This document shows positions 8,633 to 9,394 of a stretch of 64,000 nucleotides of DNA, one piece after another; positions within the stretch are counted from its first letter, which is position 1; the number at the start of each line of letters is the position of its first letter. Source of the stretch: Aureobasidium sp. EXF-3400. Lineage: Eukaryota; Ascomycota; Dothideomycetes; Dothideales; Saccotheciaceae. The position numbers and the translations under genes are program-made. Under the pieces are notes generated by a model. It saw nothing but the letters and a program-made list of their open reading frames with translations. It did no database searches and had not been told where the DNA came from. The stretch spans positions 1 through 64,000 of the forward strand of contig SWBL01000204.1 in assembly GCA_024195585.1 (NCBI GenBank), written 5' to 3'.

Positions 8633-9394
8633 ATGTTCAGAAGAGTCGCTTCCACCGTCCCCGCTCAGGCTAGCAGAGCCATGGCTGCCGCCGTCAGACC
8701 TTCGATCGCTCCCTCATTCCGCGCCGCCGCTCCCGCCATCAACAACGCAAGAAGAAGCTACCACGAGAAAGATATGTCTACCCATCTTCCATCGCTGTCC
8801 ATGCGTCGATGGTGAATGAAAGGCCATCGACGCATTGGCAGCTCTGGATCTGGTCACTCTTGAACGCTCAGCTAACATGCGCAGCACTGCTCGACCACTA
8901 CAGCAAGCCCAGAAACGTCGGCAGCATGCAGAAGAACGACACCGACGTCGGTACCGGTCTCGTCGGCGCTCCCGCTTGCGGCGATGTCATGAAGCTTCAA
9001 ATCCGTGTCGACCCCAACGACAACACCATCAGCGAGGTCAAGTTCAAGACTTTCGGCTGTGGTTCCGCCATCGCCAGCAGCAGTTACTTAACCGAGCTCG
9101 TCAAGGGCATGACCCTCGAGCAGGCTGGTCGCATTAAGAACACCGAGATTGCAAAGGAGCTCTGCCTGCCCCCTGTCAAGCGTAAGTTGACACCATCAGC
9201 GGAGATGCGAAATAGAGAACACGAATACTGACTTCATTATAACAGTCCACTGCTCTATGCTCGCTGAAGACGCCATCAAGTCCGCCATCTCAAACTACTA
9301 CACCAAGAACCCCAAGGCAAGAAAGACCGACCTCGGCGGCACCTCCGCACCTCTCCCCAAGGTCGAGGTTGAGACCGTTTCGGCCACCGCTTAA
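8633..9394 (+). CDS. ISU1: Iron-sulfur cluster assembly scaffold, mitochondrial
   Basis: IscU-type scaffold on which the cysteine desulfurase complex builds [2Fe-2S] clusters in the mitochondrial matrix before the Hsp70 chaperone hands them on. The exons are 8633-8771, 8888-9181 and 9246-9394, giving 193 aa. An Arg/Ser/Ala-rich presequence (about 42 residues) precedes the mature protein. The three ligand cysteines are in GAPACGD, FGCGSAIASSSY and LHCSMLAEDA, and the chaperone-binding LPPVK is present. The second intron (GTAAGT to CAG) restores LPPVKLHCSML. The first intron is unusual: only AT...AC ends (8772-8887) give the conserved YHEKVLDHYSKPRNVG. The C-terminus is about 15 residues longer than in yeast. 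Confidence 0.95.
8772..8887 (+). other. AT-AC intron 1 of ISU1
   Basis: A 116-nt intron that starts ATATGT after the exon base G8771 and ends AGCAC before T8888. Joining there yields GTG (Val) and the invariant HEKVLDHY. A fungal-type branch site GCTAAC lies at 8871-8876, about 12 nt from the 3' end, and no U12 consensus (ATATCC, TCCTTAAC) is seen. The 5' site equals the common donor GTATGT with its first G changed to A. Confidence 0.75.

Follow-up and report, generated by a model that had tools for sequence, protein, structure and literature searches.

An AT-AC intron with U2-type splice signals in ISU1 of Aureobasidium sp. EXF-3400, probably old and often misannotated

How is an intron removed from an essential gene when none of its GT-AG pairs yields the protein of the family? 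This question is raised by ISU1 of Aureobasidium sp. EXF-3400, encoded in the first 64,000 nucleotides of contig SWBL01000204.1 (the window), in which a reading of the sequence alone had proposed a first intron with AT-AC ends. We scanned all combinations of donors at 8700-8879 and acceptor ends at 8760-8904 that leave an intron of at least 30 nt, with the reading frame anchored by the ATG at 8633 and the codon CTC (Leu) at 8890. Exactly one of all cut pairs, AT at 8772 with AC at 8887, yielded HEKVLDHY (YHEK-V-LDHY), which bears out the sequence-only reading of this junction. None of the GT-AG pairs scanned gave this family protein, and in this respect intron 1 is not a canonical GT-AG intron. 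The junction reads G8771 | ATATGTCT ... GCTAAC (8871-8876) ATGCGCAGCAC8887 | TG8888, and the AT-AC ends expected of a U2-type AT-AC intron are found both in the window and in a second, homeologous copy of the gene. The spliced protein (193 residues; NifU_N, PF01592, E 1.3e-51) aligns with yeast Isu1 and human ISCU without gaps across YH.KV.(D/E)HY in the five alignments shown.

Table 1. Features of the ISU1 locus, in window coordinates.
Feature	Position	Strand	Basis or remark
ISU1 exon 1	8633..8771	+	mitochondrial presequence to ...RRSYHEK and first base of the Val codon; phase 1
ISU1 intron 1, AT-AC, 116 nt	8772..8887	+	sole scanned pair giving HEKVLDHY; ends identical in homeologue
5' splice site ATATGT	8772..8777	+	first 7 bases same in homeologue
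Predicted hairpin, 13-pair stem 8801-8813/8823-8835, extension 8794-8799/8837-8842	8801..8835	+	fold
Branch site GCTAAC; motif places the branch A at 8875	8871..8876	+	same in homeologue
Internal AG, three bases before the AC end	8883..8884	+	would yield HEKALLDHY
3' splice site AC	8886..8887	+	cut-pair scan
ISU1 exon 2	8888..9181	+	cut-pair scan, frame
ISU1 intron 2, ordinary GT-AG (GTAAGT...CAG)	9182..9245	+	sequence
ISU1 exon 3 including stop codon	9246..9394	+	frame

To place this junction in its family, we collected 229 distinct proteins from three protein searches (best 120 each of 7996 or 7997 scored), setting aside P0057, which has no PRNVG anchor as used by the script and itself reads HEKVLDHY. 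Among the 228 anchored proteins of the 229 listed homologues, the join was normal (YH.KV.DHY) in 170 and faulty in 58. Two short contigs (950 and 956 bases; P0001 and P0002) encode proteins 98% identical to that of the window, read HEKVLDHY and contain neither intron; being short and devoid of introns, they probably derive from spliced RNA. On these grounds, and on those that follow, we conclude with high confidence that intron 1 of ISU1 is an AT-AC intron removed by the ordinary U2-type spliceosome, and that it is old and often misannotated in gene models.

Two other kinds of join keep the reading frame and fit the protein less well, as had been noted at the outset. The first, an AT-AG intron (8772-8884), would place the acceptor AG 9 nt past the branch A and add one residue (HEKALLDHY); A, S, P or T precedes LLDHY in 45 of 49 faulty models, as an AG acceptor or read-through gives. 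Yet YHEKALLDHY is read by 0 of the 229 listed homologues, set against the 170 with a normal join, and both intronless Aureobasidium-like records have V at this place, while a passage of PMC3584512, speaking of U12-type introns, describes intermediates with AT-AG ends as poorly spliced. We consider this join very unlikely. Still less credence attaches to GT-AG splicing with extra residues, through 8805-8884 or another pair, although Aureobasidium gene models employ such joins, including P0006 of EXF-3400 itself. The pair 8805-8884 gives HEK-DMSTHLPSLSMPL-LDHY, with 12 extra residues (a donor at 8803 and an insert of 11 had been given earlier, and these two figures did not hold), and the remaining GT-AG and GC-AG pairs printed by the scan lose or add conserved residues. 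The inserts of such models vary across species and among the records of one species, the donor GTCGAT is poor, and the insert interrupts an otherwise gap-free family block. Two further candidates were rejected: a stwintron (nested introns) by reasoning, as the terminal bases of the outer intron would remain A and C, and an introner-like element by a genome search (E<=10) that returned the intron itself, its homeologue and an antisense self-match over the intron's own hairpin (E 0.24).

A protein search of the assembly (53.4 Mb in 717 contigs) turned up two ISU1 loci and no more. The second, on contig C25, is 93% identical to the first and has the same AT-AC ends and equal intron length, and its protein departs from that of the first at 3 positions. 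Within intron 1, 17 of the 116 bases differ between the copies, none of them among the first 7 or the last 26. The genome is probably diploid, which would account for the two copies; EXF-3400 is strain O, and strain O is called diploid in a passage of PMC9430960. A sequencing error as the source of the A at 8772 is unlikely, given the identical ends of the second copy and the A at +1 implied by gene models of other species.

Which spliceosome removes the intron is indicated first by its signals. Apart from base +1, donor and branch site are those of a U2-type intron, ATATGT matching GTATGT at 5 of 6 positions and GCTAAC matching RCTAAC at 6 of 6, in agreement with the earlier description of an ordinary donor with G1 changed to A and an ordinary branch site; the branch A at 8875 lies 12 nt from the last intron base, where about 12 nt had been estimated. 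Removal by the minor (U12) spliceosome could draw on the AT-AC ends, on this distance, which lies within the 11-13 nt given as the U12 optimum in part of PMC3584512, and on TCTTGAAC at intron positions 87-94, a match to TCCTTAAC at 6 of 8 bases; that element, however, is altered at positions 87, 88 and 90 in the homeologue. The first eight donor bases, ATATGTCT, agree with RTATCCTT at 5 of 8 and carry G at +5, which places them outside the U12 donors as defined here (RTATCCTT with at most one C of +5/+6 replaced by T); for positions +5 and +6 of U12 donors, a section of PMC2846911 gives CC, or one T at most, and this donor has GT there. At the U12 branch site, for which TCCTTAAC near the 3' end was sought, CTAAC matches at 4 of 8 bases.

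The snRNA genes of the host point the same way. With Rfam models run against the genome, U11, U12 and U4atac gave no match at E<=1 among the best candidates scored (39 of 2463, 42 of 1107 and 48 of 889, respectively), and U6atac gave two matches among 46 of 2739, both below the cut-off (best E 0.32), so that the assembly check suggested with the sequence-only reading found none of the four above cut-off; the controls of this search were prokaryote genomes, none of them with a minor spliceosome. The minor snRNAs that a U12-type intron needs in its host are likely absent from the genome. The U12 protein marker PDCD7 had no match in a genome search run without a positive control, and Rfam returned nothing at gathering score on the window. 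The same tool found the genes of U2 (8 matches, 7 above cut-off), U6 (2 above cut-off) and U1 (6 matches, under the Rfam cut-off but with E 3.5e-12 or better), all three being thus present in the genome. In a survey of more than 3000 genomes across eukaryotes, neither Ascomycota nor Basidiomycota yielded convincing minor introns, as summarised in a passage of PMC10639083, and part of PMC7072748 mentions minor snRNA genes in a single fungus. Taken with the donor and branch site, these results leave splicing by the minor spliceosome extremely improbable.

All six U1 genes start with ATACTTACCTTG, the normal 5' end, which indicates that U1 is not adapted to an A at +1; a compensating U1 was rejected, as 0 of the 6 U1 genes found show the C-to-U substitution needed for pairing with this A. 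A major-spliceosome mechanism with an AC end is likely. In such a mechanism, normal U1 would pair with AG|AUAUGU in spite of the A at +1, the ACAGAGA of U6 with UGU at +4 to +6, and U2 with GCUAAC. The first and last bases of an intron pair in the splicing step; in the second step here, pairing of the A at +1 with the terminal C would lead to the use of AC at 8887 in place of AG at 8884 and give HEK-V-LDHY.

Some of the snRNA genes are themselves unusual. Both U6 genes found (L016, 1532-1626, and L017 on the reverse strand; contigs C230 and C246) look interrupted, with ...TATACAGAGAAGATTAGCATGGCCCCTGCACTAAGGATG followed by GTGAGTTCGA(T/A)CC...CTAAC...CAG (56 and 54 nt) and then by ACACATGCAAAC and a T-run. 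The interruption reads as a GT-AG intron holding a Pol III B-box-like GTTCGANNC, and resembles the U6 intron of fission yeast. At another locus (L010, contig C430), two U2-like genes face opposite ways at a distance of about 200 bases, and one of them falls under the Rfam cut-off.

The 58 faulty gene models bear on the age of the intron. All 58 have NCBI as their source, and they comprise 16 records of Aureobasidium, 2 of Dothideomycetes sp. NU459 and 40 of other genera (e.g. Bipolaris, Alternaria, Didymella, Botryosphaeria, Phyllosticta, Saccharata, Glonium and Coniosporium), which we take to belong to several orders of Dothideomycetes. Every listed record named Aureobasidium (16 of 16) is faulty at the AT-AC site. 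YHEK is kept in 52 of the 58 models and followed in all 52 by Asp, i.e. G|A(T/C), which implies A at +1 and T or C at +2, as a GT donor would read Gly. The two residues after YHEK are DK in 25 (ATAAR), DM in 13 (ATATG), DN in 6, DD in 3, DI in 2, and DT, DR and DE in one each; the DN and DI models would fit cuts at GT within ATAAGT or ATATGT. At the other end, LLDHY is read by 49 of the 58 (9 do not have it), preceded by A (23), S (12), P (8), T (2), L (2), I (1) or V (1), and an intron end NNAC|TN would be compatible with all 49, each preceding residue having an NNA codon. LT followed by 1-3 residues and ALLDHY, taken as CTAAC, occurs in 16 models, with a branch A-to-end distance of 12 nt in 15 and of 9 nt in P0108, protein models making visible only multiples of three, of which the script took 9, 12 and 15.

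For other species, the intron ends were deduced from the faulty protein models: these fix the A at +1, allow T or C at +2 and are compatible with AC as the last bases. A normal join does not reveal the intron ends used, and the case for conservation across the class is therefore built on the faulty models. The proteins contributed by the second search (73, many of them from Leotiomycetes and Eurotiomycetes) all have a normal join, as do records of Zalaria, Neodothiora and Delphinella, three genera close to Aureobasidium.

Records of one species can differ at this site alone. In Parastagonospora nodorum, P0082 reads HEKVLDHY and P0206 reads HEKDKS...LLDHY, with flanks identical at 47/47 and 141/141 positions. 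The same contrast of Val with an Asp extension between identical flanks was found in Paraphaeosphaeria minitans (P0113, P0220) and Phyllosticta citriasiana (P0092, P0219), and recurred in two comparisons of P0224 (P. paracitricarpa) with records of other Phyllosticta species; two A. melanogenum records compared were both faulty. The genome annotation of P. nodorum Sn15 is described in part of PMC8146201 as RNA-supported and hand-curated, a statement on Sn15 and not on P0082.

With this signature recurring in several dothideomycete orders, the change to AT-AC ends looks old; the intron was probably present already in the last ancestor that Dothideales, Pleosporales and Botryosphaeriales share. 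That many gene models miss it is presumably due to their placing GT-AG ends alone. The original observation is right and broader than first claimed: a U2-type AT-AC intron in a genome in which no minor snRNA was found above cut-off is supported, and a purely local origin by paired changes seems doubtful.

Several minor results came from the same searches. The Aureobasidium record P0015 has an additional insert at the site of intron 2. P0121 (Lamprigera yunnana, a firefly) and P0177 (Carpinus fangiana, a hornbeam) match fungal ISU1, possibly through contamination of the assemblies by fungi. A degenerate exon-donor pattern aimed at the DNA of relatives gave 12 matches in viral contigs, in which tblastn with the exon 2 peptide of ISU1 gave one 15-residue match (E 0.15) and nothing else, and a search of the genome collection for ISU1 DNA of relatives returned at least 80 loci, all with bacterial titles.

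AT-AC introns of the major spliceosome are few and scattered, and U2-type examples (AT-AC II) are known in vertebrate sodium-channel genes. The ISU1 intron shares with these its AT-AC ends and a U2-type donor and branch site, and differs in being fungal, in lying in an iron-sulfur scaffold gene, in a host in which minor snRNAs were not detected, and in its apparent presence in several orders. With U12-type AT-AC introns it has in common the ends and the short distance from branch site to end, whereas its donor is not RTATCCTT, its branch site is CTAAC and no U12-class snRNA of its host exceeds the cut-off. A closer parallel is the AT-AC intron of a GFP reporter in Arabidopsis, which, according to a section of PMC5473141, is also U2-type and has its AC 3 nt outside an AG (cf. 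AG 8884 and AC 8887); that intron, however, sits in a transgene, where a nested GT-AG intron competes with it, whereas the intron of ISU1 is natural and has no good internal GT donor. U2-type AT-AC introns are mentioned in part of PMC7072748, where AT-AC makes up 0.019% of fungal splice pairs; passages of two other surveys give 69 of 14305 junctions in Trichoderma longibrachiatum (PMC4324775) and 0.09-5.19% of junctions in fungal pathogens (PMC6176087). In these passages, AT-AC ends in Dikarya appear as counts, with no ISU1 or conserved case among them. Among the papers listed by searches for AT-AC introns in fungi or in ISU1, conducted mostly outside subscription journals, there was none on an AT-AC intron in ISU1.

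If this intron is indeed old and shared, its place in a core gene of fungi that can be cultured would allow direct tests of the rule that first and last intron bases pair, of how an AC is selected when an AG lies nearer, and of what becomes of U12 introns once the minor spliceosome is lost. It also indicates a systematic annotation fault, as 58 of the 229 listed ISU1 homologues, all NCBI records, carry a faulty join.

As to how the AT-AC ends arose, paired changes from GT-AG, as first proposed, are one of two readings, the other being conversion from a U12-type intron. Under the latter, the donor and branch site of a U12-type AT-AC intron would have turned U2-type upon loss of the minor spliceosome, and the present intron would be what is left of it, with its ends and short branch distance preserved. 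Its signature over several orders and the 12 nt from branch A to end in 15 of the 16 readable 3' ends favour such a remnant, and conversion of U12 into U2 introns is described in passages of PMC3584512 and PMC2846911. Human ISCU isoforms diverge at the same residue, so that an intron may lie there in animals. Against it, short branch distances are ordinary in the window (9-29 nt among 16 unverified pattern matches), the distances taken from protein models could only be 9, 12 or 15 nt, and the 73 proteins of the second search show no trace of AT-AC, their normal joins being silent on intron ends. We regard a U12 origin as possible but doubtful. It is a similarly tentative suggestion that the AT-AC intron was kept for most of the history of the class without a minor spliceosome, either as a U12 fossil or because slow splicing was retained as a means of setting ISU1 output.

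If the intron is retained, the reading frame runs through 14 further codons to a stop in both copies. With so few codons before the stop, the product would comprise little beyond the import signal, and retention could set ISU1 output as slow splicing supposes. The intron also folds more stably than expected (z -4.9 in the window, -3.2 in the homeologue), and its predicted hairpin would perhaps shorten the distance between donor and branch site. Of the 31 pairs predicted in the window, 28 are still paired in the homeologue, one of them via changes on both sides, and 3 are broken, which is suggestive of pairing kept between the copies.
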